From Synechococcus sp. CS-1332 (GTDB lineage Bacteria; Cyanobacteriota; Cyanobacteriia; PCC-6307; Cyanobiaceae), in NCBI RefSeq assembly GCF_025127995.1, contig NZ_JAHLYP010000047.1:1-64000 (forward strand): 64,000 bases of DNA, in the 5' to 3' direction. The number at the start of each line of letters is the position of its first letter. Position 1 is the first letter of the stretch. Below the pieces are notes generated by a model. It saw only the letters and a list, made by a program, of their open reading frames with translations. It searched no databases and was not told the origin of the DNA. Position numbers and translations under genes: made by a program. Positions 25,645-41,472 of the stretch are shown here, one piece after another.

Positions 25645-25832
25645 CGAAAAGTCGGCGCGGGTACCCAGTTGTTGATTGCAGGATGCCAGAGGCCTGGATG
25701 GTGTAGGGATCAGGGCAGACAGTTCCCTTCTCCGGCAGATCTGATGGGCGGCCGGGAAGCCACTTCAAACGCATTGATGTTGGCTTGTCAGCGCCCGTAG
25801 AGTGACACCCACGCCCATGCCCTAGGCCGGGA

Positions 25833-28220
25833 ATGCCACCGCAGAAAGCCAAACCTCAGCGTTCCGACGCTCCGGCGCAGGCGGGCCAGACGTTGGTGGC
25901 TACGCCGGCAGGGTACGTGGTGGCCGAGCAGAACGGCACGAAGGAAAAGGAAGGCGGTGGTTTCGATGTGCGCGATCTTTTGCAGGTGCTCCGGCGGCGC
26001 CAAAAGCCGTTTCTGATCACCGTGGCGTTGATCACCGCCGTGCAGGCGGCGCGCACCCTGAATGAACGCTTTCTGCATCCGGTGTATGCCGGCAATTTCA
26101 CGCTGCTGATTTCCGATCCCGTCAACGAACCGAAGGAATCCACGGCGAATGCGGAAGCCGGCGCCCTGGCCTCGCTGGCGCGCAACACCTCTTCGGTGGA
26201 TCTTCCCACCCTGATGGAGGTGCTCCAGAGCCGTTCGGTGCTGGATCCGGTGTTCGAGACCCTAAAGCGGGAGGGTGTGCCCGAGAACGATTTTCCCAGC
26301 ATCAGTGTGGGGATGACGAAAGAAGTGAGCCGGGATGCGGGCCCCTCCTTCGGGGTGGTGAGCGTGAAGGCCAGGGGCTCCGATCCACAGGCGCTGAAGC
26401 GGGGGCTGGAGCTCACCGAGAAGGCCTACCTGGCCTGGGCCACCAGCCAGCGCCAGGAACGGCTGAGCGATGGCCTGCGCTTTCTGGAGGAGCAGGAACC
26501 GCGGCTGCGGACCAACACCGAGCGCCTGCAGCTGAATCTGCAGCGCTTCCGGGAGGCCAACACGCTAATACAACCGAACGATGAGGCCCTGGCCCTGCGC
26601 GGTCAGCTTGAGCAACTGCAGCAGCGGCGGCTGGCGCAGCAGGGGGAACAGCGGCGGCTGAATGAGCTGCGGGCGGACGTGGCCAGCGGCAGGCTGGCGG
26701 CCCGGAGGTTCAACAGCACTGGAGACGCCGGAGCGGGTGCCACGGCGTCCGGTGGCGGTTCGATTTCGGCCAACCTGCCTGGCCAGTCTCAGCTGGATGA
26801 ACTGCAGCGTCTGGAGCAGGAAATCGCCGAGGCGGAGGCCAACTTCCAACCCGGCTCTCCAGTGCTGACATCGTTAAAGGCCTCTCGGGCGTCGCTGCTG
26901 CCGCGGATCCAGGGGAAGCAATTGGAGGCCGTGGATGCGGCCCTGCGCCAGAACGCCAATGCCATCAACACCACCCAGGCGCAGATCGCCCGCCTGGAGA
27001 GGCAGTTCCAGAACCAACCGGAACTGCTGCGGCAGTTCGAAGGGCTGCAGAAGCGTCTGCAGATCGCCGATGGCAATCTGGAGAGCTACCTGCGGGCTCG
27101 GGAGCAATTTCAGCTGGAGATCGCCCAGCGCAGCTCCCCCTGGAAGGTGATCTCCGCCTCCCAGGTGAGTGATGTTCCGGTGGAACCTTCGCTGGGCCGG
27201 GGCTTGGTGGAAGGTCTGTTGCTGGGCCTGGTCGGTGGTGCGGGCGTGGCCTTCCTGCGCGAGCGGCTCGACCATGTCTTCCACAGCCCCCAGGAGGTGC
27301 GCGAGGAGCTGAACGTGCCTTTGCTCGGCCACATGCCCTACGTGGACTTCTTCGATGGGGTGCGCGGCGAGAAGCGCTTCCGGATCAGCGAGCTCGACCT
27401 GAAGAGCGCAGGGGAGGCTGGCTACCAGCGCTTCTTCTACCAGGAGTCGCTGCGCAATCTCTACACCAGACTGCGCTTCCTCAGCACCGAGAAGCCGCTG
27501 CGGTCGGTGGCGATCACGAGCACGCTGCCCTCGGAGGGCAAGAGCCTGCTGAACGTGCTGTTGGCCAAAACCCTGAGCGAACTGGGCCAGCGGGTGCTGC
27601 TGGTGGATGGCGACCTGCGAAAACCCAAGATCCACTACCGCCTCGGGCTCGACAACCTGCGTGGCCTCAGCAATCTGCTCACCGAGGAGGCCGCCGACTG
27701 GCGGGAGGTGGTGCAGAAGGTGCCGAACTATCCCGACTGGAGCGTGCTCTCGGCGGGCCTGCCACCCCTTGATCCCCCCCGACTGCTGGGATCGGATCGC
27801 ATGGATCAGATCATGCGGGATCTGGCCGAAAGTGGCCAGTTCGATCTGATCCTGTACGACACACCCCCGGCCCTTGGCCTGGCCGATGCGGCGCTGATCG
27901 CCCAGCATCTCGATGGGATGATCCTGCTGGTGAGCCTCAACCAGGTGGATCGGGGGCTGCCGGCCCAGTCGCTGGAGCGGATCCGGGAGGCGGGAGCACC
28001 ACTGCTTGGGGTGGTGACCAACGACCGCTGCGGGACCAGCAATATGGAGCTCGGCTATGGCTATCGAGCCAATGGCGCCAACGGCATAGGCACGGCCTAT
28101 GGGGCTTACGGAGGAGTGGAAGAGACGACGAACAACACGAGCAATCAGTCAGCGCTAACGCGGGCCCGTCGGGGGCTGAAGCGCCTGGGCAGCCGGGTCT
28201 CCGGCTGGCTGGATCGCTGA
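25833..28220 (+). CDS. Polysaccharide copolymerase / bacterial tyrosine autokinase (Wzc type)
   Basis: 795 residues. An N-terminal Wzz-like chain-length domain with a first membrane segment near residue 55 is followed by a long coiled coil (about 200-420, many Gln/Leu/Arg). A second membrane segment (VEGLLLGLVGGAGVAFL) and a cytoplasmic BY-kinase domain complete it. The kinase shows Walker A with SEGKS (567-571), Walker A' LLVDGDLRKPK (Asp592) and Walker B LILYDTPP (Asp676). It controls chain length and export with the Wza-like protein. The tail has four Tyr (YGYR, AYGAYGG), fewer than the classic cluster. Its stop is 9 bp from the stop of the convergent sugar transferase. Confidence 0.92.
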   Translation: MPPQKAKPQRSDAPAQAGQTLVATPAGYVVAEQNGTKEKEGGGFDVRDLLQVLRRRQKPFLITVALITAVQAARTLNERFLHPVYAGNFTLLISDPVNEPKESTANAEAGALASLARNTSSVDLPTLMEVLQSRSVLDPVFETLKREGVPENDFPSISVGMTKEVSRDAGPSFGVVSVKARGSDPQALKRGLELTEKAYLAWATSQRQERLSDGLRFLEEQEPRLRTNTERLQLNLQRFREANTLIQPNDEALALRGQLEQLQQRRLAQQGEQRRLNELRADVASGRLAARRFNSTGDAGAGATASGGGSISANLPGQSQLDELQRLEQEIAEAEANFQPGSPVLTSLKASRASLLPRIQGKQLEAVDAALRQNANAINTTQAQIARLERQFQNQPELLRQFEGLQKRLQIADGNLESYLRAREQFQLEIAQRSSPWKVISASQVSDVPVEPSLGRGLVEGLLLGLVGGAGVAFLRERLDHVFHSPQEVREELNVPLLGHMPYVDFFDGVRGEKRFRISELDLKSAGEAGYQRFFYQESLRNLYTRLRFLSTEKPLRSVAITSTLPSEGKSLLNVLLAKTLSELGQRVLLVDGDLRKPKIHYRLGLDNLRGLSNLLTEEAADWREVVQKVPNYPDWSVLSAGLPPLDPPRLLGSDRMDQIMRDLAESGQFDLILYDTPPALGLADAALIAQHLDGMILLVSLNQVDRGLPAQSLERIREAGAPLLGVVTNDRCGTSNMELGYGYRANGANGIGTAYGAYGGVEETTNNTSNQSALTRARRGLKRLGSRVSGWLDR

Positions 28221-28229
28221 ACAACGCCC

Positions 28230-29669
28230 CTAGTAAGCGTTGGTCGAGCGGATGTGAAGCAGGGTTTTGATCAGAATCTTGATGTCCTTGGCCAGCGACC
28301 AGTCGCGCTGATATTCAAGATCGGCTGCCACGCGATTGGCCATGGCCTGGAGGGTGGCTGTTTCGCCGCGGAAGCCCTTCACCTGGGCCAGGCCCGTGAT
28401 CCCAGGCTTGAAGAGGTGGCGCTGCATGTAGCCGGGGATCATCTTGCGGTATCGCTCGTTGTGGTCGACCGCATGGGGGCGGGGGCCCACCAGGCTCATG
28501 TGGCCCTGCAGCACATTGAAGAGCTGGGGCAGCTCATCCAGGCTCCAGCGACGCAAGACGGCACCCACGAGGGTGATTCGCGGGTCGTTGCGGGTGGCCT
28601 GGCGCAGACCATTCTGGTCGCCGGCCTCGAGAACGCGCATGGTGCGGAACTTGTAGATGCGGAAGCGGCTGCCATCGAGGCCGTAGCGATCCTGCAGGAA
28701 GAGGACCGGTCCAGGGCTGGTAAGACCGATGGCCAGGGCGATCAGCAGAAGGAGAGGGCTGAGCAGGAGCACCACCGTGGAAGCCAGGACAAGGTCGAAG
28801 CAGCGCTTGAGCTGGCGATCGAGGATGGAATCAAGCGGCTGCCAGAGATCGATGCAGATCTGGCCGCCCACATGCTGAGCCTTGAAGGCCATGCCGGGCG
28901 CCACCCAGGTGGGGGCATAGACCACGGGAATGCAGGTGTCGCCGAAGAAGCGGATCAGATCCTGCATCGAGATGTCGCTGCGGGACAGATAGCTGAAGAC
29001 GATCTGATCGACGTGTTGACTATTCAGCCACTGGCGCAGCTCCGGGAGGTTGCCGCCGAAGGCAGGCATGCCGGGTGGGAGGTGACGGCCGGGGGTGGGC
29101 GGCTGGGGGCTGAACCAGGCCGCCATGCGCAAGCCCAGGTAGGGATTGTTCTGAAGTCGTCGGTGAAAGTCGATGGCGGCTTCCGGCAGGCCCCAGTAGA
29201 TGATGGAGCGGGCGTTGCCCCCCCCCGCGCGATGCCAGCGGAGCAGCTTGCGGCCACCCACATGCACTGACAAGAGCGCAGCCCAGCTGAGGCTGGCCCA
29301 GAGGGTTAGCTCCAGGCGTGAGAAGGTGGCCGTCAGTTTGGTGAGAAAGGCCAGCGCCAGCAGCGCCCCTAGCAACAGCAGCCAGCTGGTGGTGATGCGG
29401 CGCATGAGCGCCCACAGGGTGCACTGGCGGTAGCTCAGGTAGATCTTCCCCTGGGGCAGGATCAAGGCGGTGCAGAGCCCCACCACGATCTTGGTGGAGA
29501 ATGCGGTCTCGCCCTGAAAATCATCGGGGAGATTCCGGCTCACCACCAGCCAGAACAGGGCCATCACCAGCAGGGGATCGCCCACGCGCATCAGCCGGTG
29601 CAGGTCGCGGGCGTGGTCCCGCAACACACCACCCCAGGAGAATGGGATCTGTGGAGGTATCGTGACCAT
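28230..29669 (-). CDS. Undecaprenyl-phosphate sugar-1-phosphate transferase (WbaP/WcaJ type)
   Basis: 479 residues from ATG 29669; GTG 29687 would add six. Four or five N-terminal membrane segments and a CoA-binding-like Rossmann middle part are followed by the bacterial sugar transferase domain. That domain has KRCFDLVLAS, PGPVLFLQDRYGLDG, FRIYKFRTM, DELPQLFNVLQGHMSLVGPRP and KPGITGLAQVKGFRGET. It starts repeat-unit assembly by putting a hexose-1-phosphate on undecaprenyl phosphate at the inner membrane. The specific sugar cannot be read from sequence. It is convergent with the kinase gene and divergent from the WcaI-like gene. Confidence 0.92.
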   Translation of the reverse strand: MVTIPPQIPFSWGGVLRDHARDLHRLMRVGDPLLVMALFWLVVSRNLPDDFQGETAFSTKIVVGLCTALILPQGKIYLSYRQCTLWALMRRITTSWLLLLGALLALAFLTKLTATFSRLELTLWASLSWAALLSVHVGGRKLLRWHRAGGGNARSIIYWGLPEAAIDFHRRLQNNPYLGLRMAAWFSPQPPTPGRHLPPGMPAFGGNLPELRQWLNSQHVDQIVFSYLSRSDISMQDLIRFFGDTCIPVVYAPTWVAPGMAFKAQHVGGQICIDLWQPLDSILDRQLKRCFDLVLASTVVLLLSPLLLLIALAIGLTSPGPVLFLQDRYGLDGSRFRIYKFRTMRVLEAGDQNGLRQATRNDPRITLVGAVLRRWSLDELPQLFNVLQGHMSLVGPRPHAVDHNERYRKMIPGYMQRHLFKPGITGLAQVKGFRGETATLQAMANRVAADLEYQRDWSLAKDIKILIKTLLHIRSTNAY

Positions 29670-29740
29670 GGCCGGAATGGCTCGCACAAGTGGGGCAGAT
29701 AGGGCAAGATTAGGCTTGCTTTTGAGGATGGTGTAGAGCC

Positions 29741-30958
29741 TTGAAGGTGCTGCTCTACGGGCTGAACTATGCCCCGGAAACGGTAGGGATCGGCAAGTTC
29801 AGTGGTGATATGGCCACCTGGCTGGCGGCACGGGGTCACCAGGTGCGGGTGGTCACGGCGCCGCCCTATTTCCCCGAGTGGCAGGCCAGGGGAAACCGCT
29901 ACCGGCATAAGCACAGCGAGGGCGTGGCGGTGTGGCGCTGTCCGCTGTGGGTGCCACGGCAGCCGCGTGGGCTGACGCGGTTGGTGCACCTGGCGAGCTT
30001 CGCGGTAAGCAGCCTGCCGGTGCTGCTGGCCCATCGGCGCTGGCAGCCGGATGTGGTGCTCACGGTGGCGCCGGCGTTCTTCTGCGCGCCGGGGGCGCTG
30101 CTGCTAGGTCGGCTGTGCGGCTGGCGCACCCGCACCTGGCTGCACATCCAGGACTTCGAGCTGGATGCGGCCTTTGAGCTGGGGATGCTGAAGGGGAAAC
30201 TGCTGCGCCGCCTGGCGGAGCGCTGGGAGCGGGGCACCCTCGGGCGCTTTGATCGCGTCAGCAGCATCAGCGGGGCGATGCTGCGGAGGGTGGTGGCGAA
30301 GGGGGTGGCCGACCACCGGGCGGTGCTGCTGCCGAACTGGGTGGATCTCGACGCGATCCAGCCCCAGGGCGACGAAGCTCGCGCCGCCAACCCCTACCGC
30401 CGGGAGCTGGGGATCGGCGCAGAAGCGATGGTGCTGCTGTATTCGGGCTCAATGAACAGGAAGCAGGGCCTGCAGATCCTGGTGGAGGTGATCCGGCAGC
30501 TGGCGGACGTGGAGAACCTGATCTGGCTGCTGGCCGGCGAGGGCCCCAACAAGGCAGAACTGGCGGCGGGCCTGGCGGGCTTCCCACAGGTGCGCCTGCT
30601 GTCGCTGCAGCCGCTGGAGCGGATGAACGACTGGCTCAACCTGGCGGATGTGCACCTGTTGCCGCAGCGGGCGGGGGCGGCCGATCTGGTGCTGCCCTCA
30701 AAGCTGCTGGGGATTCTCGCCAGTGGCCGGCCGGTGGTGGCTACCTCGGCAGCGGACAGTGAGCTGGGGCAGCTGGCCGAGCAGGCCGGGGTGCGGGTGG
30801 AGCCGGAGGATCCGGCCGGTTTCGCGGCGGCGATCCGCCGGCTGGTGGGAGATGGGGCGCTGCGCCAGCAGCGGGGCCGGGCCGCCCGACAGCTGGCGGA
30901 GCAACGCTATGGCAAGGAGGCGGTGCTACAGCAACTGGAGCGGGAACTGCATCGGTGA
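29741..30958 (+). CDS. WcaI-family glycosyltransferase (GT4, GT-B fold)
   Basis: 405 residues from TTG 29741. The N-terminus (KVLLYGLNYAPETVGIGKF) and DFELDAAFELGMLKGK are typical of WcaI proteins of colanic-acid type loci. The C-terminal half has LLAGEGPNKAEL, LLPQRAGAADLVLPSKLLGI and a donor-site Glu-x7-like region. It adds a sugar to the lipid-linked repeat unit. The TTG start is chosen because the family N-terminus begins exactly there. Its stop overlaps the GTG of the Nudix gene. Confidence 0.85.
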   Translation: MKVLLYGLNYAPETVGIGKFSGDMATWLAARGHQVRVVTAPPYFPEWQARGNRYRHKHSEGVAVWRCPLWVPRQPRGLTRLVHLASFAVSSLPVLLAHRRWQPDVVLTVAPAFFCAPGALLLGRLCGWRTRTWLHIQDFELDAAFELGMLKGKLLRRLAERWERGTLGRFDRVSSISGAMLRRVVAKGVADHRAVLLPNWVDLDAIQPQGDEARAANPYRRELGIGAEAMVLLYSGSMNRKQGLQILVEVIRQLADVENLIWLLAGEGPNKAELAAGLAGFPQVRLLSLQPLERMNDWLNLADVHLLPQRAGAADLVLPSKLLGILASGRPVVATSAADSELGQLAEQAGVRVEPEDPAGFAAAIRRLVGDGALRQQRGRAARQLAEQRYGKEAVLQQLERELHR

Positions 30959-31422
30959 AACGGCTGAAACGGCTGATTGGAAGGCTGCGCCTCTACTGGC
31001 TGGCGGCCCGGCTGTATGAAAGCTGGCAACTGCTGGCCCGGCCCCACACCCACGGAGCCCTGGTGGCGATCTGGCACCAACAGCGTCTGCTGCTGGTGCA
31101 GGCCAGTTATCGCCGCAGCCTCTCGCTGCCGGGAGGGGGCCTTAAGAGACGTGAAACAGCGCAGCAGGCGGCGGTGCGGGAGCTAGCCGAAGAGCTGGGG
31201 CTGCGAGTGACGTCGGGGGAGCTGGTGGATCCCTGGCAGATCACCGAAAGTTCAGCTCGGGGGAAGAACACCGTGACGATCTTCACTCTGCGAGAGGCGC
31301 GCGAGCCGGCGATCCGCCTCGACGGCCTTGAGCTGGTGGGAGCCCACTGGCTGACGACGGAGGAAGCGCTGACGCGGCCGCTCGTCAGCCACGTGAGGGA
31401 GTATCTGGAGAAGAACCGCTGA
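30955..31422 (+). CDS. Nudix hydrolase
   Basis: 155 residues from GTG 30955, overlapping the preceding stop (GTGA). The Nudix box is complete (residues 61-83): a Gly, five residues, Glu67, seven residues, then RELAEELGL. Nudix enzymes cleave nucleoside diphosphates linked to another group, using Mg2+. The tight link to the WcaI-like transferase suggests a nucleotide sugar or GDP-mannose-type substrate, as in colanic-acid loci that carry Nudix gmm. A basic, hydrophobic N-terminus (KRLKRLIGRLRLYWLAARLY) precedes the fold and may bind membrane. The substrate is inferred. Confidence 0.82.
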   Translation: MKRLKRLIGRLRLYWLAARLYESWQLLARPHTHGALVAIWHQQRLLLVQASYRRSLSLPGGGLKRRETAQQAAVRELAEELGLRVTSGELVDPWQITESSARGKNTVTIFTLREAREPAIRLDGLELVGAHWLTTEEALTRPLVSHVREYLEKNR

Positions 31423-31459
31423 AGCCGGCGCGTGCAGATGCGCTCAGCCAGCCCACACC

Positions 31460-31780
31460 TCAGCCAGTTCGATCCGCAGCCCCGGAAGAGGTGGCCAGCA
31501 TGTAAGAGCTGCCGCTGTTGTGGGCACCAGTTTCGCTGCCGGTGGGGATCATGGGGATCAGCTGACAATCGCCGGCGAGTTCAAGCACAGCACCAGGATC
31601 TGTCTGTCAGACCTGCTCGAATTGCTCCGGGGTCAGGAGCAGATACCAGGGCACAGCCAACGGCTCCAGCACAGGAGGGATTCGCTTGAGAGTGAATGGA
31701 CCGTTGGGCGATGCAAGGATCATGCATCGAGCAACGGAGCTCTTCTGATCAACGGTGAGGCCAATCAGAAGCCATCAGCC
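31460..31780 (-). pseudogene. Unrecognised reading frame with an internal stop, downstream of ydcF
   Basis: In the frame that follows the ydcF-like gene on the minus strand a coherent protein-like sequence can be read. It shows WLLIGLTVDQKSSVARC, then ASPNGPFTLKRIPPVLEPL, then VPWYLLLTPEQFEQV. After one TGA it continues in the same frame with DPGAVLELAGDCQLIPMIPT to a second stop. GC-rich codon use matches its neighbours. No family is recognised. It may be a decayed gene with one nonsense mutation, or a short real protein starting at an internal ATG (31726) and ending at the first stop. Seen by translation only; coding status is uncertain. Confidence 0.4.
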
Positions 31781-31782
31781 GT

Positions 31783-32511
31783 TCACATCCGGCCCTGGAG
31801 GCGGTAAAGCAAGGTGGCGGCGCTTTCCCGCAGGGCCAGACGGTTGCGCTCGCGGGGCGAAAGGCCAGGATCGGCGGCAACGGGGGTCACGGTCAGCTTC
31901 TGGAGCTGAAAGGCCCGGCTGGCACGCGGCAGTTGCCACGGATCGGTGATCAGCACGATGGCCGGCCGGTTGGCCAGGGTGTGGTGATCACGGATCCAGG
32001 TGTTGGTGAGAGTGGCGTTCTCCCAGGTGGTGCGGGCACAGCTATCCCCGGAGATGCGCTCGGGTGGTACGCCGAGTTGGAGCAGACGTTGAGCGGTGGC
32101 AGGAGTGTCCCCAGACACATAGATGCGCTGCACGCGGCCCTGGTGCAGCATCCGAGCGGCCAGTGCGGTGGTGGCAGGAGCAATGTCGAAGCCCCTACCC
32201 ACGAGCACGGCCAGGGCCGGGCCGGGGGCTGAGGTAGGCGGCAGTGGCAGTTGGCTGCTCAGCCAGGCGCTGAGCCCTGCGGTGGTGAGGGGGCTGTAAA
32301 GGAGGGAAACGAAGGCAGCGGCAAGGCCACTGAGCAAGGCTCTCATAGGCCAACCGAAGCCTGCGGCGCGGCAGAGCAACAGCGCCAGGCCCGCGATCAG
32401 GGGCAACACCAGGACGGGGGTGATGAGCAGATTGAGCAGGGCGTCCCGCACGGGAAACCAGGCCATCGGCGCCGCTTGGCAGCTTGTCCAGTCGACGGCG
32501 GACGGCAGCAT
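31783..32511 (-). CDS. YdcF/ElyC-family protein (DUF218)
   Basis: 242 residues from ATG 32511; the frame is open to 32601 but the extra N-terminus is shared with an upstream gene remnant, and a parallel copy (34546) has an ATG at the same place. Two membrane segments (about 28-48 and 55-75) are followed by the DUF218 domain. Seen there are LAVLVGRGF, IYVSGDTPATAQRLLQLGV, TTWENAT and VLITDPWQLPRASRAFQ. Related proteins act in envelope or undecaprenyl-linked sugar metabolism. It probably acts at the inner membrane in the polysaccharide pathway. It ends just before an unrecognised frame. Confidence 0.75.
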   Translation of the reverse strand: MLPSAVDWTSCQAAPMAWFPVRDALLNLLITPVLVLPLIAGLALLLCRAAGFGWPMRALLSGLAAAFVSLLYSPLTTAGLSAWLSSQLPLPPTSAPGPALAVLVGRGFDIAPATTALAARMLHQGRVQRIYVSGDTPATAQRLLQLGVPPERISGDSCARTTWENATLTNTWIRDHHTLANRPAIVLITDPWQLPRASRAFQLQKLTVTPVAADPGLSPRERNRLALRESAATLLYRLQGRM

Positions 32512-32660
32512 GGGGCAAGATGCTGAGGCAATCAGCCTTGCAAAGGCTGGGGCTGCTCCAGTTCGCGGAAGCGGCAGGCGATCTGGACGAAATAGGGGCA
32601 TTTCAGCATGGCAAAGGCAAAACCCATGGAGCCATCACGCCAGCCGCCCATCAAAACGAT
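32463..32660 (+). repeat. Imperfect direct repeat, copy A (GT2 3' end plus ydcF 5' end)
   Basis: About 200 bp that match 34494-34690 in the same orientation at roughly 80 percent by eye. Shared runs include CTTGTCCAGTCGA, GCTGCTCCAGTTC, GGAGCCATC and GCCAGCCGCCCATCA. Copy A joins a truncated GT2 to an intact ydcF; copy B joins an intact GT2 to a truncated ydcF. Confidence 0.8.
32532..32660 (-). pseudogene. 3' fragment of a GT2 (WaaE-like) glycosyltransferase
   Basis: The last about 40 codons match the end of the intact GT2 at 34554-35393: LMGGWRDGS, then GFAF, then YFVQIACR and RELEQ, with few changes. Upstream of this the similarity stops abruptly and an unrelated AT-rich segment begins. 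It is therefore a truncated copy, not a gene. It lies 20 bp upstream of the intact ydcF start, preserving a GT2-to-ydcF order. Confidence 0.75.
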
Positions 32661-32988
32661 GCAATCGAGCCAAGCATTAATGGCTCGTACGCTCACTAAT
32701 CCCACTCTCAAAGTCCTGTTGAGCAAGACTCCCAGCTTACCCGATTGGCGCCGCTGGCAGAACAGGCATTCTCTACCGGTCTGTAGTTGACTGGCGTGGG
32801 GAATGAGTTAATCTAACGTTTAGGTTGGGTCGCTTAAGCTCGGATCACAACCGTGCTGACTAGACATCTTCTTATCAGCTGGAATAAACTTGCAAGGTTC
32901 AATAACAAGCACCAAGCAAGGGTTTCAGGCCTTGAGCAGACGACAAGTCTTCACAGTTATCTACCTACTTTTCCTTAGGATTTATTGA
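32661..32988. other. AT-rich intergenic region upstream of GT8 gene
   Basis: About 330 bp with a sharp drop in GC relative to both sides. No gene is recognised. It probably contains the promoter of the GT8 gene, but I cannot name convincing -35 and -10 boxes. Confidence 0.5.
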
Positions 32989-33942
32989 ATGGCCTTCGCA
33001 GTGGCTTTGTGTGCTGACCAGAATGTAGTGTCACCTACACTTGCAACCATCTACTCACTCGTTTTCGCAACTCGCTCAAAGGTTGAGATCTATATTGTTT
33101 GCTCGGGTTGGTCTTCTCATGACAAGAGTATGATTCTGCGAATTCTGGAAGAAGCAACAGGAAGAGCGCAAGCACACTTCATCGATTTAGACTCAACATC
33201 TATTATAGAACGATTAAGATCTTTTGCTAATGGTCTTCACGGTAACTACATGTCGTGGATCCGCTTATTTCTTCCCTCTTTGCTGCCTGACCTAGATAGG
33301 GTTCTTTACTTAGATACTGACCTCGTTGTCGATGCAGACCTTCAGCCTTTATATTCCATCGATCTTCACGGGCAGCTACTGGCAGCAGTAGAAGGCGGCA
33401 GCGTTGCCCATAGTCTAGATGGCCCATTCTTGTTGGAACATGGCATTAGTCCATCTGCGACATACTTCAACGCTGGAGTCTTAGTAATAGACTTAAAAGG
33501 CTGGCGCGAGACTAGAGCCACTGAGCGGATGCTTTCCTTTGTTGAACAAAAACATTCCTTACCGAGCCATGACCAAACACTCCTCAACTACTTTTTCTCT
33601 GGGAGTTATGCAATATTTTCCTCCACTTACAACCATCCATTGTACACACATAGTCCTCCAGTTGATTTACGCCTTGAAGGGCAAGATCGACGCGTCTATC
33701 ATTTCGTTGGAAGCCCAAAACCATGGGACGCCTTCGGCTGGCTACTGCATAGAAATTATCTACTTTATGAACAGATGCACGAACAATCTGTCCCCAAAGC
33801 TCGCCAACGACTACCACCTCTTCCTTCCTCAGCCAGCATTTACCGAACTTGGCATATTCGAATGTCCTATCTTAGAATTCTTTTTATTTATACAAAATGG
33901 CTGACACTAAGGCTGAGAAAGGTTTTCCAAGGGAAAGCCTAA
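32989..33942 (+). CDS. Glycosyltransferase family 8 (GT-A fold)
   Basis: 317 residues from ATG 32989. The sequence begins with a typical GT8 start (VALCADQNVVSPTLATIYSL). The metal-binding DxD is in LYLDTDLVVD (Asp109, Asp111), followed by YFNAGVLVIDLKGWR and HDQTLLNYF, and HFVGSPKPW closes the active site. GT8 enzymes are retaining galactosyl/glucosyltransferases of LPS and capsule pathways. Codon use is clearly more AT-rich than the flanking genes and the gene runs against its plus/minus neighbours, so it is likely acquired. It sits between the two copies of the direct repeat. Confidence 0.85.
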   Translation: MAFAVALCADQNVVSPTLATIYSLVFATRSKVEIYIVCSGWSSHDKSMILRILEEATGRAQAHFIDLDSTSIIERLRSFANGLHGNYMSWIRLFLPSLLPDLDRVLYLDTDLVVDADLQPLYSIDLHGQLLAAVEGGSVAHSLDGPFLLEHGISPSATYFNAGVLVIDLKGWRETRATERMLSFVEQKHSLPSHDQTLLNYFFSGSYAIFSSTYNHPLYTHSPPVDLRLEGQDRRVYHFVGSPKPWDAFGWLLHRNYLLYEQMHEQSVPKARQRLPPLPSSASIYRTWHIRMSYLRILFIYTKWLTLRLRKVFQGKA

Positions 33943-34475
33943 GATGCTTAAATGGTTTCCCCCTTTTCCGTCTACCCGACTCCGTTTCTGCGTCCATGCG
34001 AGTCACTACAAAAGAATTTGTTCATGCTAAATTTTCACTGGTTCATTTGCTGTGGCTTCTTCCGCGCCACCTGCATAAAGCTGCCCTAACTACCTGTGGC
34101 TTTACCGCCAGTTTTTCAAGTCTGCAGCTACACAAGCTGCAACTGGAGGATGGCCTCCTTGGAGCATGGAGCACATGGGTCCGCCGCGGAACTGGGGAGA
34201 TGCCGGTTAGAAGGACATCTCTTGCGACCGAGGCGCAAAAGGCTGACTTAGGCACACATTGGGCGGGCAAGATTTTTTTTATAGAGGCCTATGGGGGTAC
34301 CTCACAGAGCACGCTCAGGCTGCTGGCGTGATCAACGGCCACTTGGACCTACTCATGGCCAATCCGAGTGAGTTTTCCATGAATAGATCAAGGTTGATCC
34401 GGTGGCCGACCAACGGCTATGACGGCCGTCTTGAGGACCCTGGAATTTCGACGGGGCATTCGAACAACATGAAGT
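33943..34475. other. Non-coding or decayed stretch with one coherent frame
   Basis: No intact gene. From a T8 tract (34273-34280) to about 34498 one plus-strand frame reads like protein (GYLTEHAQAAGVINGHLDLL, then SRLIRWPTNGYDGRLEDPG). It has no recognised family and no valid start, and it runs into the antisense of the repeat. Before the T8 tract a different frame is open. This may be a gene remnant broken at the homopolymer. Confidence 0.35.
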
Positions 34476-34546
34476 ATGTCCCGAAGAAGCAACAGGGCCA
34501 TCGGAACCGCCGGGCAACTTGTCCAGTCGAGAGAGGACGGCAGCAT
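34476..34546 (-). pseudogene. 5' fragment of a ydcF-like gene
   Basis: From ATG 34546 the first about 23 codons (MLPSSLDWTSCPAVPMA, then RD) match the start of the intact ydcF-like gene at 32511 (MLPSAVDWTSCQAAPMA, then RD). Then similarity ends and the frame continues without YdcF features. It lies 8 bp after the stop of the intact GT2. Confidence 0.65.
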
Positions 34547-34690
34547 TGTTACCTCAGCCCGGGATCGGCGGAAGCTGCTCCAGTTCCCGGTAGCGGCAGG
34601 CAATCTGCACGAAGTAGGCGGATTTGAGCAAGGAAAAGGCGAAACCCACGGAGCCATCGCGCCAGCCGCCCATCAGAAAAAAGCTGCCGA
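34494..34690 (+). repeat. Imperfect direct repeat, copy B (GT2 3' end plus ydcF 5' end)
   Basis: Partner of 32463-32660, same orientation, about 80 percent similar by eye with one gap of about eight bases at the GT2-ydcF spacer. The two copies are about 2.0 kb apart and enclose the AT-rich GT8 gene. Confidence 0.8.
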
Positions 34691-35393
34691 AGAAGAACAC
34701 CAGCCCACCCCACGGTGTGGTGACCAAACGATACTTGAGGCGCTGGTTCCGGCTCCATGTTTTCGCGGCGGCGCTTTCCCTGAGTGATGCCAGCAAGCGC
34801 TGGGCTTCCCATGCGGCGTATTCGTTATGCTTCCGCATGTAAGCGTCGATGCCACGCAAGTCGCGGTGGTCGATGCGGCTACGAATGGTGCCGATGGAGC
34901 CTCTCACGATCGGGTGCTCGTGCACTTCCATGTCGCATTGCGACCAAGCCTCCTCTTCGATGCGCTCGTATTCCACCTCGCCCACGCGGAAGAGCGCCAA
35001 CTTGTGTAGGGGATAGCCACCACGCAGTCGACGACCGAGGAAATAGTTGGTGTAGGTGAGCCGGTAGCCCTTAAAGGGGCTTTGGGGGAGCACGGCCGCG
35101 ATTTCACACTTCACATCCGGCGAGAGGATCTCATCGGCATCGAGAAACAGCACCCAGGCCGTTGGAGGGGTGTGGTGGCGCAGGAACCAGTTGCGCTTCT
35201 TGGGGAAGCGGCCATTCCATTCAAAATTGACGACCTCAGCGCCATGGCTGCGGGCCATCTCAGCGGTGGCATCGGTGCTGCTTGAATCGATCACCACCAC
35301 CGAGCGGGCGAAGCCGGTGCCAATGGCCTGCAGACAAGGCGCGAGGTTGCGCTCCTCGTTCCGAACAGGGAGTGCAACCGTGAGATCAAGCAT
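34554..35393 (-). CDS. Glycosyltransferase family 2, WaaE/KdtX-like
   Basis: 279 residues from ATG 35393. GT-A features are LTVALPVRNEERNLAPCL, VVIDSSSTDAT, PKKRNWFL and LFLDADEILS (DxD). Then HKLALFRVGEVEYERIEEEAW, HEHPIV and a C-terminal membrane-near part (FFFGSFFLMGGWRDG). This pattern is typical of WaaE-like beta-1,4-glucosyltransferases acting on a membrane-linked acceptor. It starts 3 bp after the WcaF-like gene stop, last in a packed seven-gene run. Its 3' end is duplicated at 32532-32660. Confidence 0.87.
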   Translation of the reverse strand: MLDLTVALPVRNEERNLAPCLQAIGTGFARSVVVIDSSSTDATAEMARSHGAEVVNFEWNGRFPKKRNWFLRHHTPPTAWVLFLDADEILSPDVKCEIAAVLPQSPFKGYRLTYTNYFLGRRLRGGYPLHKLALFRVGEVEYERIEEEAWSQCDMEVHEHPIVRGSIGTIRSRIDHRDLRGIDAYMRKHNEYAAWEAQRLLASLRESAAAKTWSRNQRLKYRLVTTPWGGLVFFFGSFFLMGGWRDGSVGFAFSLLKSAYFVQIACRYRELEQLPPIPG

Positions 35394-35396
35394 GAA

Positions 35397-35945
35397 TCAG
35401 CTCCTCTTCCGGGGCTTGATGGGCTTGCAGGGATTGCCAGCGCACACCATCCAGGCGGGCTGGGATCGCATCGCCACAGATCGGGCGCCGATCACGGCCC
35501 CTTCACCGATCTGCACTCCGGGGCCCACAAAGGCCTCAGTGCAGATCCAGGCATCGGCGCCAATGGTGATCGGCCTGGCGAAGAGCGGAAAGGTGGCCGA
35601 GGAGTAGTCGTGGGAGCCGGTGCAGAGATGGGCGCCCTGCGACACCACAACGCGTTCGCCGAGGTGAATCGGGGCCATGGAATAGCAGATCACCCGCGGG
35701 CCCAGGCATGCCTTAGCGGCCATGTGCAAATTCCAGGGAGCCCAGATGCAGGCATCGCTGTAGATGTGGCAACCGGCTCCGATGCGGGCACCGAAGCAGC
35801 GCAGAAGCCAGCTCCGCCAGGCGTGAAGCGGTCGTGGTGTGGGCCGGAACAGCAGCGTCCACACCAGCTGCCAGCTGACGCGTGCCAGACGATTGCGACG
35901 GGAGAAGCTAGCGCCCTCAAAGGGTTTGTTGTTGGCGAGGATCAC
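35397..35945 (-). CDS. WcaF-like hexapeptide O-acetyltransferase
   Basis: 182 residues from ATG 35945, overlapping the upstream stop (ATGA). Left-handed beta-helix hexapeptide repeats run from about residue 50 to 165 (IGAGCHIYSDA, then IHLGERVVVSQGAHLCTGSHD, shortened here to its start and end, IHLGER and CTGSHD, and ITIGADAWICTEAFVGPG). The active His is in GSHDYSS. It transfers acetyl from acetyl-CoA to a sugar of the repeat unit. It is short and matches colanic-acid WcaF enzymes in layout. Confidence 0.85.
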   Translation of the reverse strand: MILANNKPFEGASFSRRNRLARVSWQLVWTLLFRPTPRPLHAWRSWLLRCFGARIGAGCHIYSDACIWAPWNLHMAAKACLGPRVICYSMAPIHLGERVVVSQGAHLCTGSHDYSSATFPLFARPITIGADAWICTEAFVGPGVQIGEGAVIGARSVAMRSQPAWMVCAGNPCKPIKPRKRS

Positions 35946-37102
35946 GAGACGTGGCGAGCGGATTCGAGCACCGGCAGCAGATTCCTGGCCACCGACGCAA
36001 AATCAAACCGATCCCTGAACAGCTGCGCCCCCCGCTCCCCCATCCGCGCCTGCTCGGCGGCCGGCATCGCCAGCCACTGGCCCAAGGCTGCGGTTGTTCC
36101 GGCAATGGTGTCGGAATGGACCAATCCGGCCCCGGCCTTCTCCACCTCGGAGGAGATGTTCACGGGATGAGCAATCGCCACAGGTAGGCCGCAGCCCATG
36201 GCTTCCGCCACCACGATGCCGAAGTTCTCCTGGTGGGAGGGAAGGCAGAACAGCTCGGCACTGCGGAAGGCGCCCCACTTGAGATCGCCGCTGAGCATGC
36301 CAGGCCAGGTGAGTCGGTCGGCAATCCCAAGCTGGGCAGCGTACCGTTGCAGGTCCGCTTGCCAGCCCATTTGATCCGGCCCCGCGATCACCAGGTGCAG
36401 GCGAGGATCGCTCGCGGCCACTCCGGCAAAGGCCTCGATCAGCAGATCCACGCCCTTCTTGGGATGGAGGCGGCTGAGGAAGAGCAGGAGGCGCTTTCCC
36501 TGGAGATGGGGATGGGCCTCGAGAAAGAGGCGGCGCTGCGCATCCGCCTCTCCGGGAGGGGATGAGGTGCCGTAGCCCACCACACGCTCGCGGGCCCGAT
36601 AGAGCCAGAACGACTGGCGGGCCAGCAACCGCTCCTGCTCGCAGGTGAACAGCACGGCCCTGGCATCCCGCAGCACCCGGTACTCGCCCCAGGGCCAGTA
36701 GGCCCACTTCTTGAGGTGCTTGAGCGGATAGGTGTGCTTGAACCAGGGATCGAGCATCCCATGGGGGTACACGAAATAGGGGATGCCCGTGCCGTGCAGG
36801 GCCCGCCAGGTGGCGAAGGCGTGGTACTGCCACACACCGTGCACGATCACCGCGTCATGGCCTTGGGCGAGAGCTCGGATGCGGGAGGGGAGCCCGCGGC
36901 GATAGCCGTAGAGGCCATGGACGGGGCCCAGGCCGCAATCGGGAGGGGAGTGGTTGCGGAGCCAGGGGGCATCGGGTGGGTCGAGGCTGGCTAGGGTGCT
37001 GCTCACCCCGAGAGCCGCCAGGTGGGGGACCATCTGGCGGACGCCCTCGATCGGCCCACCGCCAAGAGGATCGAGCGACCGATTGAGGTTGAGGATTTTC
37101 AA
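35942..37102 (-). CDS. Glycosyltransferase family 4 (GT-B fold)
   Basis: 386 residues from TTG 37102. The frame is open to 37381, but the family N-terminus (KILNLNRSLDPLGGGPIEG) begins right at this TTG, which overlaps the stop of the Wzy-like gene as TTGA. Conserved parts are HGVWQYHAFATWRA, PHGMLDPWF, FLSRLHPKKGVDLLIEAF, PGMLSGDLKW, and the donor-site PSHQENFGIVVAEAMGCG with a Glu-x7-Glu. It adds one sugar of the repeat unit from a nucleotide sugar at the inner membrane. Its stop overlaps the next gene. Confidence 0.87.
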   Translation of the reverse strand: MKILNLNRSLDPLGGGPIEGVRQMVPHLAALGVSSTLASLDPPDAPWLRNHSPPDCGLGPVHGLYGYRRGLPSRIRALAQGHDAVIVHGVWQYHAFATWRALHGTGIPYFVYPHGMLDPWFKHTYPLKHLKKWAYWPWGEYRVLRDARAVLFTCEQERLLARQSFWLYRARERVVGYGTSSPPGEADAQRRLFLEAHPHLQGKRLLLFLSRLHPKKGVDLLIEAFAGVAASDPRLHLVIAGPDQMGWQADLQRYAAQLGIADRLTWPGMLSGDLKWGAFRSAELFCLPSHQENFGIVVAEAMGCGLPVAIAHPVNISSEVEKAGAGLVHSDTIAGTTAALGQWLAMPAAEQARMGERGAQLFRDRFDFASVARNLLPVLESARHVS

Positions 37103-38433
37103 GCCTGGCCAGGGGTAGGGATCAGCACGACGTAGGAGGGCGTGTTGGCAGCCGCCCAGGTGAGGCCGGCGGACACCACCAGAAAACCGAGTGAGGTGGG
37201 CTGGCTGAGACCACCGGAGATGACCCCGAGCAACGAAGCACCAAGGAAGATCAGGGGCATGCGGTTGCCCTGAGAAGCGGAGAGAAGGGAAAGCTGCAAC
37301 AGGAACCAACCGAGGGCCACCCGCCAGGCGATGAACACGAAACCGAGGGGAAGTCCCAGCTCGCCGAGGATGGCATCCCATGAGCCTTCGGCGATGAGGA
37401 AGGTGCGTTCACCTGTCAATCGCTGGGCCCCCACATTGGTGCCCATGCCGATTCCCATGCCCAGAATCGGCGCTGCGTCACGATTCTCAAAGGCGCTGGT
37501 ATAGCCACCCAGAACTCTGTTCTGAATCACGCCCAAGAGCCCATCCTCTCCCGACTCACTTTCATTGGCCATGGTCCAGCGCGCTGAGAAGGCTTCACTG
37601 GTGTCCCTGAACGCAGGGATAGACGATCCGATCAGAACCACCAACAGAATCGCAATCAGGCTGGAGATCAGGGGCAAGATTCGGGTGCGGGAGAGCAACA
37701 TGGCACAGACGACAGCCACCACGACAAGCACGTAGCCGAAGAGCAGCGAGCGGCTGATGGAGACGGGCAAGGCCACCACCAACCCCAGCCCGGCTGCAAG
37801 CAGAAGCAGCAGGCGGGCTGGAGTTTGTCGCATGCCATAGAGACGGGCGAACAGCGCGGCTGCGGCCAGGGTGAAGAAGGACACCAGGCCGTTGATGAAG
37901 GAAAAGGTGCCCGGCGGGCGCGAGCGTCCCAGGGCACCGGTAAAGGCCGCTGTGTCTTCCCCACCGGGGGCGACATTGAGAATGTGGCCGTCCGGCAGGT
38001 TCGACTGGGCCACGATCAGTAACGTCATCGGAAGGCTTATCAGCAGCAGCGCCTTGGCGAAGCGCAACACGCCCTCGCGATCGAAGGCGGCGGCGTAGAG
38101 AAAAATCAGGGGCAGATGGATCAGCAGAATCCGGGTGCCAAAGATAGCCGTGATCAGATCACGATGCCCAACCAGCATGGCCAGAAAAAACGCGGCGAAG
38201 GCGATACCGAAGAGCCACTGCAGCCATGACTGAAACCGCCGCTGCAGCAGCAGTGGAGCCCCGCGCCAGAGGGCGAGCAATGCCACGGGATCGCGGACAA
38301 GCAGCAAGGGGGTGGACAGGCTCGGGATCATCCACTTACGCAGGGCCCCCTCGAAGATGAGGAGCCAGAAATACAGCCAGAGCAAAAGGCGCAGCTGGCG
38401 CCAATGGGCAGTGGTGAGGGATGGTCCGCTCAA
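37099..38433 (-). CDS. O-antigen ligase/Wzy-like polysaccharide polymerase
   Basis: 444 residues from TTG 38433, overlapping the stop of the upstream GT4 (TTGA). The frame is open to 38514 but would run into that gene. About ten to twelve membrane segments are visible, with a large periplasmic loop around residues 290-345 (SARWTMANESESG, then NRVLGGYTSAFENRD). That layout is typical of the Wzy_C/O-antigen ligase superfamily. It would polymerise lipid-linked repeats in the periplasm. Sequence alone cannot separate polymerase from ligase. It is the only such protein in the window. Confidence 0.75.
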   Translation of the reverse strand: MSGPSLTTAHWRQLRLLLWLYFWLLIFEGALRKWMIPSLSTPLLLVRDPVALLALWRGAPLLLQRRFQSWLQWLFGIAFAAFFLAMLVGHRDLITAIFGTRILLIHLPLIFLYAAAFDREGVLRFAKALLLISLPMTLLIVAQSNLPDGHILNVAPGGEDTAAFTGALGRSRPPGTFSFINGLVSFFTLAAAALFARLYGMRQTPARLLLLLAAGLGLVVALPVSISRSLLFGYVLVVVAVVCAMLLSRTRILPLISSLIAILLVVLIGSSIPAFRDTSEAFSARWTMANESESGEDGLLGVIQNRVLGGYTSAFENRDAAPILGMGIGMGTNVGAQRLTGERTFLIAEGSWDAILGELGLPLGFVFIAWRVALGWFLLQLSLLSASQGNRMPLIFLGASLLGVISGGLSQPTSLGFLVVSAGLTWAAANTPSYVVLIPTPGQA

Positions 38434-39680
38434 TGGTGCAACAGGGGTGCAACGGCATCCACCAAGGCCGTCTGATAGCTGCTCCAAGAGATCGCGGCGG
38501 CCCGGCGCAGGCAAGCCTGGCGCATCGCCGCGAGCTGATCGCGATCGTCGTCGAGTTCAGCGAGCCGCTGGGCAATGGCCGCACTGTCGCGGATGGGAAC
38601 GATGAAGCCTTCCACCCCATCACGGATAAGATCCGGTGCGGCGGTATTGGGGGTGGCGATCACCGGCAGCCCCTGGGAGAGGGCCTCGGTGAGCACCAGG
38701 CCGAAGCCTTCGAACAGCGAAGGGAACACCAGCACATCGTGCTGGCGCATCTGTTCTAGAATCGCCCCATGAGGTAGTGATGGGATTGCCTTATGCCGTT
38801 CCAGCGCAGCGGTCAGCGGTGCGCAGCTGGTGGAGGTGGGCCTGCCGATCAGGGTGAGGGTCACGGCGCCGGCCAGCTGGGCCACCGCCTCGAGCAGGTA
38901 GGACAGGCCCCTGCGTTGGCCGAGGGAGCCCACGAACAACACCCTAAGGGGCCCGAAGCCTAGGCCCCGCAAGGGTTGGGTGGTGGGTGGTGGCGCCCCG
39001 TAGGGCAGCACATGGATTGGTACGCTGCAAGCCTGGTTACTTGTGAGCGTGTGGCGCACGAACTGGGAAGCCACGACCACCACATCGGCCTTGTTGAGTT
39101 CTGCATCCTTGCTGGCCAACTTGGCGACACTGTCGCGAAGGCCGGTGAGGGTGGAGGCCCACTGGGGCAGGAGCTCGGCCTCCTCGGCAAAGATCTGGCG
39201 AGCTGATTTCCAGTAGCCGATCGGCAACTCATAGATGCGGGACAGACCAAGCCCCTGGGCCACCTCGAAGGTGGCTAGGGCGGCATCTTCGTAGGCGTAC
39301 ACCGCACAGAGCCCTGGGGTTCGTGGCAGGGCAGCGGCCACGCTGCGATCAAAGGAGCGAATCACCCGATCGATGCTTAACAGGCCGGCCTCATGGCAGA
39401 GCAGGGGCTGCCAATCAAATTTTACGGCTGCAAGCCGGGGCGCTTCCCACCAAGGATGGCTGTGCTGGAGGGAGAGGGGAAGATCAGGGAAGGAGCGGCG
39501 CTCCAATTCAACGCGCAGCGCCTTGGGCAGCAGCCCAGCGAGAGGGGCCCGGTTGTTCCAGCAGAGACAGCTGTGAAATCCCTGCAGCAAGCCGACTCGA
39601 TGGAAGGCCGACGCAGCCGCACGCACATTAGCGTTACCGGTAGGGTGTGACAGCAGCAGCACGTTTGAGGTGGCCGTCAT
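38430..39680 (-). CDS. Glycosyltransferase family 4 (GT-B fold)
   Basis: 416 residues from ATG 39680, which overlaps the stop codon region of the upstream... (the next minus-strand gene ends at 39677, ATGA). Seen are an N-terminal acceptor domain with LLSHPTGNANVRAAASAF, then RVLFVGSLGQRRGLSYLLEA. The donor site FPSLFEGFGLVLTEALSQG shows the EGFG-x-x-x-x-E pattern of GT4. It is one of four GT4 enzymes in the packed cluster. The linkage it makes cannot be told. Confidence 0.87.
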   Translation of the reverse strand: MTATSNVLLLSHPTGNANVRAAASAFHRVGLLQGFHSCLCWNNRAPLAGLLPKALRVELERRSFPDLPLSLQHSHPWWEAPRLAAVKFDWQPLLCHEAGLLSIDRVIRSFDRSVAAALPRTPGLCAVYAYEDAALATFEVAQGLGLSRIYELPIGYWKSARQIFAEEAELLPQWASTLTGLRDSVAKLASKDAELNKADVVVVASQFVRHTLTSNQACSVPIHVLPYGAPPPTTQPLRGLGFGPLRVLFVGSLGQRRGLSYLLEAVAQLAGAVTLTLIGRPTSTSCAPLTAALERHKAIPSLPHGAILEQMRQHDVLVFPSLFEGFGLVLTEALSQGLPVIATPNTAAPDLIRDGVEGFIVPIRDSAAIAQRLAELDDDRDQLAAMRQACLRRAAAISWSSYQTALVDAVAPLLHH

Positions 39681-40354
39681 TCCACGAAGCCATCGCTGCG
39701 GCGGAAATAGGCAGCCTCCGGATCGATCGCTTTCCTACGGACGGCGGGCTGGCCGGCATACAGGCTCCATGGCTCAACTTGCTGCCGGTTGAGCAGGGAA
39801 CAGGCACCAAGCACAGAGTGGGACGGCAAGGCACTTCCCCCGAGCAGCACCACACGGGTGCCCACGAAGCAGTAGGCGCCGATGTGAATCGGCGCACAGT
39901 GCTGGCGATTGTGCTTGAGGTCGATCGAATGGGTGAGGAACTGGGAGCCGTAGCCGGCCACGGTGGTGAAGGGGCCGATGGTGATGCTGTCGGAGCAGTC
40001 AAGGTGATGATTCTTCGCGACCCATGCCGATACACCGAGATGGAGCTGGGAAGAGCGCTGCGGCAGGTGGCGGAAGTGGCGGGAAGGGGCCTTGGTGGAG
40101 AGGCCGGTGATCCAGTTGCCCCGACCGATGTGGCTGTCGCGATCCAGCTGGATACGGTCGAGATGGATGGCCACGCAAAAGTGGTCGATCGAGGAGTCAG
40201 CCTGCATCTCAAGATGGCCAGGGTAAATCCAGGCGATGCCGATCCTGGCGGTGGGGCTGAGGCGATAGCCGAAGCAACGGACGAGCAAACGGCGCTTGAG
40301 CGGCCAGGGCAACAGGCAGATGACGGCGCGTACCAGCAGCCGAAGAAGCTTCAT
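39677..40354 (-). CDS. Hexapeptide-repeat acyltransferase
   Basis: 225 residues from ATG 40354, overlapping the upstream GT4 stop (ATGA). The N-terminus is basic and hydrophobic (LLRLLVRAVICLLPWPLKRR). Beta-helix repeats follow (SPTARIGIAWI, HIGRGNWI, then TIGPFTTVAGYGSQFLTHS, IHIGAYCFVGTRVVLL), with a His in the middle region. It resembles sugar O-acetyltransferases such as WcaB/WcaF relatives. The acceptor is unknown. It is translationally coupled on both sides. Confidence 0.75.
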   Translation of the reverse strand: MKLLRLLVRAVICLLPWPLKRRLLVRCFGYRLSPTARIGIAWIYPGHLEMQADSSIDHFCVAIHLDRIQLDRDSHIGRGNWITGLSTKAPSRHFRHLPQRSSQLHLGVSAWVAKNHHLDCSDSITIGPFTTVAGYGSQFLTHSIDLKHNRQHCAPIHIGAYCFVGTRVVLLGGSALPSHSVLGACSLLNRQQVEPWSLYAGQPAVRRKAIDPEAAYFRRSDGFVE

Positions 40355-41472
40355 GGGGGAGCGGTCTGGATGTGTCGATAAAAACTGAGATACTCCTCGC
40401 GGAAGGTCGCTTGATCAAAACGAACAAGGTTGGCCCGGCCTGCTGCGATGAGCTTGCGCCGCTCGATCGGATCCCTCAAGCGCAACACCGCAGCGGCCAT
40501 TGCGGGAAGGTCATCAGGAGCACAAACTATGGCCCCCTCTCCGGCCACCTCAGGCACGGCGGTGACGTTCGAGCAGATCACCGGACACTCACACTGCTGG
40601 GCCTCGATCACGGGCCAGCCGAAACCCTCAGCAAGCGAGGGAAACAGCAAGCCATGGGCATGGCTGTAGAGCGCGTTGAGAAGCGCGTGATCGGGGTGGG
40701 CCATTTCCCGAATTCGGTCCATCACCCCCTGTTCAACAGCCAGGGCTCGCTGGATGGAGGAAAGCGGGGCCCCAGCGATGACCAGCACCCCATCCCAGCG
40801 GTCTGCAAGCTGCTTCAACAGGCGGATGGCGGTTTCACGGTTCTTGCGGGGAAGGCTCGAGCCCACCATCAGCAGATAAGGGGAAGTAAGCAATTCCGGC
40901 TGAGCCCTTCGCAGCGATTCCTGATCGGACGCAGGGAAGAAGGGGGCGTTCAGGGGGTTGAGCACCACCCTCAGACCCTCGCCGTGGCCACGGCGGGTGA
41001 GGCGCACGAAATCACTACAGGTGAACTCCGACACAAAGGCCAAAAACGGGGCGAAGGCCAGCGACCGAAGAATCCAGCGCTGCAACTGCCGGCCCAACCA
41101 GGAGGCTTCGCAGCAGGCCTCGTCATCACCCAAGCCACCACGGATAGCCAGCATGTCGTGGCAGGTGATCAAGCATGGGGTGGAGCCGGTGAAAGGGTGA
41201 TAAACAGCATTGGAATGGTCGCAGATATGAACGAGGTCGAAGCTGGACGCCCGCAAACGCAATAGGGGGGGGAAGAAAAGGTACTTATCGATGTAGCCGA
41301 ACCACTTGCGAAGGCCCTGGGGAAGAACGGGAAGTCGCAACATCACCACAGGTGGCCGTAAAAGCGTGAGATGAAGCGTTTCAGCACTAAGGGAATGTCG
41401 CAGGATCTGGGCATAGCGCTCCATGCTGCGCTGCTTGTCCGGGATATAGTTGCCGACTAGGAGCACCCTCAT
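40351..41472 (-). CDS. Glycosyltransferase family 4 (GT-B fold)
   Basis: 373 residues from ATG 41472; an earlier in-frame start at 41496 only adds eight residues. Seen are VRVLLVGNY-like start (MRVLLVGNYIPDKQRSMERY), HICDHSNAVYH, ITCHDMLAIRGGLG, LLMVGSSLPRKNRE, and the donor site FPSLAEGFGWPVIEAQQC with E-G-F-G and a second Glu. First gene of the tightly packed seven-gene run 41472 to 34554. A 209-bp gap with a composition change separates it from the upstream GT4 at 41682. Confidence 0.87.
   Translation of the reverse strand: MRVLLVGNYIPDKQRSMERYAQILRHSLSAETLHLTLLRPPVVMLRLPVLPQGLRKWFGYIDKYLFFPPLLRLRASSFDLVHICDHSNAVYHPFTGSTPCLITCHDMLAIRGGLGDDEACCEASWLGRQLQRWILRSLAFAPFLAFVSEFTCSDFVRLTRRGHGEGLRVVLNPLNAPFFPASDQESLRRAQPELLTSPYLLMVGSSLPRKNRETAIRLLKQLADRWDGVLVIAGAPLSSIQRALAVEQGVMDRIREMAHPDHALLNALYSHAHGLLFPSLAEGFGWPVIEAQQCECPVICSNVTAVPEVAGEGAIVCAPDDLPAMAAAVLRLRDPIERRKLIAAGRANLVRFDQATFREEYLSFYRHIQTAPP

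Follow-up and report, generated by a model that had tools for sequence, protein, structure and literature searches.

The window analysed here, i.e. the whole stretch of 64,000 nt, contains a polysaccharide gene cluster in which a ydcF-like gene and a GT2 glycosyltransferase gene are separated by a GT8 glycosyltransferase gene that is found on the opposite strand (Table 1). The neighbouring genes, coding for GT4-type glycosyltransferases and a hexapeptide acetyltransferase, are polysaccharide genes as well. The GT8 gene entered this cluster without breaking either of its neighbour genes.

Table 1. Positions of the features discussed in the text, in the numbering of the window.
Feature	Position	Strand	Remarks
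ydcF-like gene (DUF218, PF02698)	31783..32511	-	open, 242 aa; Pfam E=1.2e-14, 54.8 bits vs. gathering score 27.6
Copy A of the junction	32443..32656	-	GT2 tail 32532-32656, 20-nt spacer, start of the whole ydcF 32443-32511
Inserted segment, ~1.8 kb, AT-rich	32657..34477 (right edge possibly 34496)		delimited by composition and synteny; lacking at this junction in G012 and G016
GT8 glycosyltransferase gene	32989..33942	+	open, 317 aa; PF01501 E=2.3e-38, 132.6 bits vs. gathering score 24.3, residues 5-248
Copy B of the junction	34478..34678	-	3' end of the whole GT2 34554-34678, 7-nt spacer, cut ydcF head (34478 or 34497 to 34546)
GT2 glycosyltransferase gene	34554..35393	-	open, 279 aa; PF00535 E=1.6e-13, 51.4 bits vs. 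23.3

Two copies of the GT2-ydcF junction

Pairwise alignment revealed two diverged copies of the same ~200-nt junction, which are ~78% identical and consist of two ungapped blocks, one of 125 nt (32532-32656 vs. 34554-34678, 82% identity) and one of 69 nt (32443-32511 vs. 34478-34546, 78% identity). In both copies, when read on the minus strand, the 3' end of GT2 is followed by a short spacer and then by the 5' end of ydcF. In copy A, ydcF is whole and GT2 is reduced to its final ~40 codons; in copy B it is GT2 that is whole, and of ydcF no more than the initial 23 codons (~69 nt) are left. An earlier, sequence-only reading had proposed this reciprocal arrangement of cut and intact ends, and both the alignment and the open frames bear it out. 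The same reading described an equal order and a nearly equal spacing; the order is indeed the same, but the spacing is not, as 20 nt separate the GT2 stop (32532-32534) from the ydcF start (32509-32511) in copy A, vs. 7 nt before the ydcF start (34544-34546) in copy B. Moreover, the two spacers cannot be aligned, with 1 of 7 letters in common, i.e. the sequence match is confined to the coding ends. The sequence-only reading had named a match of the coding ends alone, due to common protein constraint, as a result that would refute it. Only the coding ends do match, yet we reject constraint as the cause because each fragment is the end piece of a gene that is whole in the other half, and the pieces follow each other as in the uninterrupted gene pair. 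When 32440-32700 was searched against the genome it comes from, it matched itself and copy B (E=8.7e-36) and no third place at E<=0.001. A scan of the window for direct repeats of at least 60 nt (14-nt seed) gave the 125-nt block and nothing else.

The outer end of copy B deserves separate mention. The inner part of its ydcF head (34497-34546) is identical to copy A in 42 of 50 positions, whereas the outer part (34478-34496) is identical in only 12 of 19. An exact 14-nt repeat (GAAGAAGCAACAGG) is present both at this outer edge (34483-34496) and inside the GT8 gene (33148-33161). In a post hoc test, a 14-nt match to copy B was not reached by any of 500 dinucleotide shuffles of the insert (longest match 13). 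Copy B may simply end at 34497, or else a small templated patch may have been written at this edge. The ydcF remnant has 11 private sites, 5 of which fall within the 14-nt patch that is identical to GT8; we therefore dropped the argument that this remnant has decayed fast (branch length 0.34 vs. 0.07 for the whole head).

The inserted segment and its GT8 gene

The sequence-only reading had called the GT8 gene AT-rich, which agrees with the G+C content of its 500-nt windows (44.6-47.6%) as compared to that of the surroundings (59-71% over 24000-32250 and 34500-41250); that the gene runs opposite to GT2 and ydcF went unmentioned in that reading. A second stretch of low G+C (46-53%) is seen at 41250-44000, inside the polysaccharide locus.

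The genome of the window, denoted G000, is counted among the 42 genus genomes (41 others plus G000) and the 400 family genomes (399 others plus G000) that were searched. No relative of GT8 was detected at E<=1e-25 in the 399 other family genomes, so that only G000 matches among the 400; the best match in the 41 other genus genomes is no better than E=7e-25, at 30% identity. Among the 292 phylum genomes there is one match besides G000 at E<=1e-30 (32% identity), and two further GT8 genes of G000, at other places in its genome, are distant relatives (29-30%). To judge from its differing composition and this isolation, the GT8 gene is a newcomer to the locus. A possible role as phage or plasmid cargo was rejected, as the tblastn search gave 16 phage and 138 plasmid records whose best places are all below 60% identity (22.6-29.5% in the rows listed), i.e. 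there is no near source. In all, no donor of GT8 was found among the phages, plasmids, 400 family genomes and 292 phylum genomes searched.

GT8 proteins are recognized by a DXD metal-binding motif and by a C-terminal H-x-x-G-x-x-K-P-W-like motif. The translation of the GT8 gene, read by eye, shows YLDTDLVV and YHFVGSPKPW, the region aligns with solved GT8 proteins, and the sequence matches the solved proteins 1g9r (LgtC) and 5gvv. Its sole NCBIfam match is far below the cut-off (55.9 vs. 461 bits). Since the frame is open and the family motifs are present, GT8 is likely a working enzyme. Its family and its neighbours suggest that it may now add a sugar to a surface polysaccharide.

The GT8 domain is the only one that Pfam found in the three insert ORFs tested; these gave no sign of a gene of plasmid or phage origin, of an integrase or of a transposase. 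Relics of the GT2 or ydcF bodies were not found in the flanks of the insert (32657-32988 and 33943-34477), where the Smith-Waterman scores were within those of 200 dinucleotide shuffles in 8 of 8 comparisons. Insertion by a transposon or IS element was considered and rejected. Target duplications of such elements are short, whereas the one found here is ~200 nt long and 22% diverged; in addition, there is no transposase domain in the three ORFs tested, and inverted repeats were not found at both ends of the insert, the nearest being a 15-nt pair (32634-32648, inside copy A, and 34318-34332) that stops ~145 nt short of the right edge.

Comparison of the right flank (33943-34500) with the 42 genus genomes gave three non-self matches of 26-38 nt (E=0.003-0.006 per genome) which we judged to be due to chance; two of them lie on a gene that, having inspected the translations, we take to be scpB. 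A single RNA family match in 32400-34800, below the gathering score (18.6 vs. 41.8 bits), was likewise ascribed to chance. The terminator scan (0 found vs. 2.4 expected in shuffles) and the promoter scan (5 found vs. 1.8 in shuffles, sd 1.5) were not used as evidence.

Relatives with an empty site and the ancestry of the copies

The sequence-only reading had advised looking for a related strain in which GT2 is directly followed by ydcF, and precisely this arrangement occurs in two of the 41 genus genomes besides G000, namely in G012 (Synechococcus sp. CCY 0621) and in G016, with gaps of 24 and 22 nt, respectively, and no GT8 in between. G012 was identified as this strain, a stretch of which (L072) agrees with that of G012 in 12,819 of 12,819 bases. 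The best GT8 matches elsewhere in these two genomes are distant (E=1e-11 and 7e-25). The GT2 gene in question is present at >=86% amino acid identity in three of the 42 genus genomes, i.e. in G000 and in these two (87% between the window and G012, 86% between the window and G016), and the next best match is at 35%; the ydcF of the window is 74% identical to both. Synteny with the G012 stretch L066 is unbroken on both sides, as the stretches 28002-31407, 31778-32653 and 34477-39760 of the window follow in order; the second corresponds to L066 9829-10701 and the third to L066 10492-15810, so that the 210 nt of the G012 junction (L066 10492-10701) match the window twice. In the family as a whole GT2 was found in 5 of 400 genomes at E<=1e-40. 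The two additional ones are G199, in which GT2 and ydcF are 3.6 kb apart, and G275, in which GT2 adjoins a GT4 gene ~72 kb from ydcF, i.e. the adjacency of GT2 and ydcF is seen only in G000, G012 and G016. As for the wider relations of GT2, the best non-cyanobacterial matches in the contig search are from Bacteroidota (Runella, Larkinella, Spirosoma, Parapedobacter; 56-61% identity). The gene may thus have passed between phyla at an earlier time.

The surroundings of ydcF show changes of their own. A remnant of an Uma2-type gene with an in-frame stop is found between the nudix gene and ydcF (31475-31612, minus strand; 57% amino acid identity over 49 residues to an Uma2 protein of G002, PF05685), and the same interval contains a GNAT-like gene in G016 and G002 and a fragment of a GNAT-like gene in G012. 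The nudix-ydcF interval is thus a second site of turnover beside ydcF. Tandem copies of ydcF are seen in G018 (L068, 5077-9494), with several paralogous small ORFs around them (starting with MVQVQPSPESAPDLA or similar), and the two of these ORFs that were tested had no Pfam match. In G170 (L101) there are three ydcF-like matches in ~8 kb, near nudix and WcaJ-like genes, and this module seems prone to duplication.

The presence of two junction copies requires a junction that existed before, therefore the GT2-ydcF junction is older than its doubling. Given the two copies in the window, the GT8-less pair in two relatives and the differing composition and isolation of GT8, we are highly confident that GT8 was inserted between the duplicated ends of an older GT2-ydcF pair. 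The sequence-only reading, which saw a pair split by recombination or duplication with insertion of GT8, is in this sense supported by the empty sites; the two copies may have come from a local duplication or from the import of a diverged junction.

The ancestry of the copies themselves was approached through their two halves. The GT2 tail of copy A is identical to G016 in 108 of 122 positions, to copy B in 101 of 122 and to G012 in 94 of 120. Five sites join A with G016 against B with G012, three of them within four columns, and one site joins A with B. The maximum likelihood tree groups copy A with G016 (62-64% support), and the tree with A and B as sisters is worse by 6.8 lnL (AU p=0.145); for these short pieces the AU test excludes no alternative tree at 5%. 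The remnant GT2 tail has 4 private sites vs. 5 in the whole one, and the third-codon bias between the two tails is weak (5, 5, 11). In the ydcF head, five sites join A and B against G012 and G016 (four if the 14-nt patch is left out), and the trees are nearly level (<1 lnL apart) with the A+B tree ahead by a negligible margin. Branch lengths are 0.34 for the ydcF remnant and 0.11 for the GT2 remnant. As to a switch between donor and native sequence inside the copies, the GT2 tail and the ydcF head thus give disagreeing signals, each without firm support.

Origin of the arrangement and comparison with known systems

We suggest, tentatively, that the GT8 DNA may have been placed by a single homologous crossover in the junction (insertion-duplication), a course of events that we put first among those considered, at somewhat less than even odds. 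GT2 and ydcF would have been neighbours in the polysaccharide locus of the ancestor, and the incoming DNA would have carried GT8 together with a short piece of a GT2-ydcF junction. One homologous crossover within the junction would have integrated this DNA in a single step, leaving one whole copy and one end fragment per gene and, in the middle, GT8 in the reverse orientation; both genes would have been spared because the matching stretch reached from the tail of GT2 into the head of ydcF. The donor would presumably have been circular or circularised, and its junction would already have diverged from that of the recipient. In favour of a single crossover, direct copies of part of the target are found on both sides of the insert, the relatives have an empty site, and GT2 and ydcF each exist as one open, full-length gene plus one end fragment. 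The GT2 tail of copy A is also nearer to G016 than to copy B, as expected if the copies are from different lineages. On the other hand, the sister tree of A and B is not rejected in the GT2 tail, the weak third-codon bias points against the single crossover, the ydcF-head sites common to A and B seem to fit local duplication as well or better, the three insert ORFs tested gave no recognisable gene of a plasmid, phage, integrase or transposase, and the 14-nt match between GT8 and copy B is not accounted for. The 20-nt spacer of copy A resembles the 22-24 nt of the relatives, and this copy may be wholly native rather than half donor.

The same sites can be explained in other ways. If a tandem duplication (GT2-ydcF-GT2-ydcF) came first in the G000 lineage, the arrival of a foreign GT8 fragment would have gone along with replacement or loss of the inner ydcF and GT2 bodies; the common sites of the ydcF heads speak for this, and so does the presence of more than one ydcF match in 5 of the 20 family genomes that have ydcF at E<=1e-20 (G018, G023, G170, G179 and G202, with one match in each of G023 and G179 holding a stop). 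We regard it as rather unlikely, as two events are required, the GT2 tails offer one site joining A and B vs. five for the other grouping, the remnant GT2 tail has no excess of private sites and the flanks of the insert hold no relics of the GT2 or ydcF bodies. Replacement of an allele, which we find unlikely, would make copy A the old native junction; GT8 and all that lies to its right, the whole GT2 included, would have come from a diverged relative in which GT8 already stood next to a broken ydcF, and the left joint would be illegitimate. The resemblance of copy A to G016, both in its tail and in its spacer (20 vs. 22 nt), and the five split sites that copy B has in common with G012 are in line with such an import, and G016 and G012 are unlike each other to the right of GT2 (42% vs. 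75% amino acid identity of the hexapeptide gene to that of the window), so replacement does happen there. However, the informative sites are few and clustered, the AU test leaves all alternative trees standing at 5%, a GT8-bearing donor was not found in the 400 family genomes, and the longer branch of the ydcF remnant as compared to the GT2 remnant is undercut by the patch matching GT8. With the decay argument dropped, our estimate for this replacement went down somewhat, and that for a staggered break went up by a trace. In the latter, GT8 DNA would have been joined into a break with overhangs of 200 nt, and the filling-in of these would have produced a very long target duplication. This would explain the same order of both copies in one step, and short templated patches like the edge match would fit end-joining repair, but the copies would have been identical at birth, which meets the same difficulty in the GT2 tail as local duplication, and 200 nt is much longer than the duplications that transposons usually make; we consider it very improbable.

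A further possibility concerns timing and is compatible with any of the above. G012 and G016 are 85.7-95.2% identical in five genes, G000 is 79.1-89.0% identical to either, and the two group together with 94% support in the ydcF tree; by distance, G000 appears to branch outside them. The event could therefore predate the split of the three genomes, with GT8 lost in the ancestor of G012 and G016: the common ancestor of the three genomes would have had the insert, and recombination between the copies would have removed it. This is distinctly unlikely in our judgement since it takes an extra event, and the other 41 genus genomes hold nothing closer to GT8 than the distant matches given above. It alters the date only, the GT2-ydcF junction still came first.

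A bolder reading, which seems quite improbable to us at present, is that crossing over at gene-gene junctions serves again and again, under selection, to bring genes into the surface-polysaccharide loci of picocyanobacteria with the neighbouring genes left whole. A short homology that runs from the tail of one gene into the head of the following one would then act as a gene-sparing port of insertion, marked by paired end fragments. The locus is a clear case of a polysaccharide cluster that gained a glycosyltransferase, with both neighbours whole and an empty site in two relatives, and paired end fragments provide a simple signature for scanning other genomes. The gene gain is ordinary in kind, each of its ingredients is already known, and taken alone it brings to light no enzyme, element or mechanism that is new; its scar is unusually readable.

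It is instructive to compare the arrangement with systems described before. The LgtC-type GT8 enzymes share PF01501 and the matches to 1g9r/5gvv with the GT8 of the window, but they are distant, and with the NCBIfam match so far below its cut-off no sugar is assigned to GT8. Genomic islands of marine picocyanobacteria contain gained genes including a glycosyltransferase, as is the case here; they are defined by these genes, and junction scars are not mentioned in the part of that account drawn on here (PMC7522525). In homology-facilitated illegitimate recombination one homologous and one illegitimate joint could also place GT8, but this process is predicted to delete part of the target (PMC3240628, in the part cited), whereas here the target is duplicated. 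Natural transformation can yield partial duplications, as described for merodiploids of Streptococcus pneumoniae (PMC3784515, in the part cited). There is also a likeness to single-crossover (Campbell, insertion-duplication) integration, in which foreign DNA comes to lie between direct copies of part of the target. In the part of the E. coli study cited here, 14 sequenced clones had flanking duplications of 109-950 bp, which the authors explained by one crossover each with a circular molecule from which some of the homologous piece had been lost (PMC3240628). The present case differs in that no vector or circular donor is seen and that the two copies, which flank the foreign DNA in the same manner, differ by ~22%.
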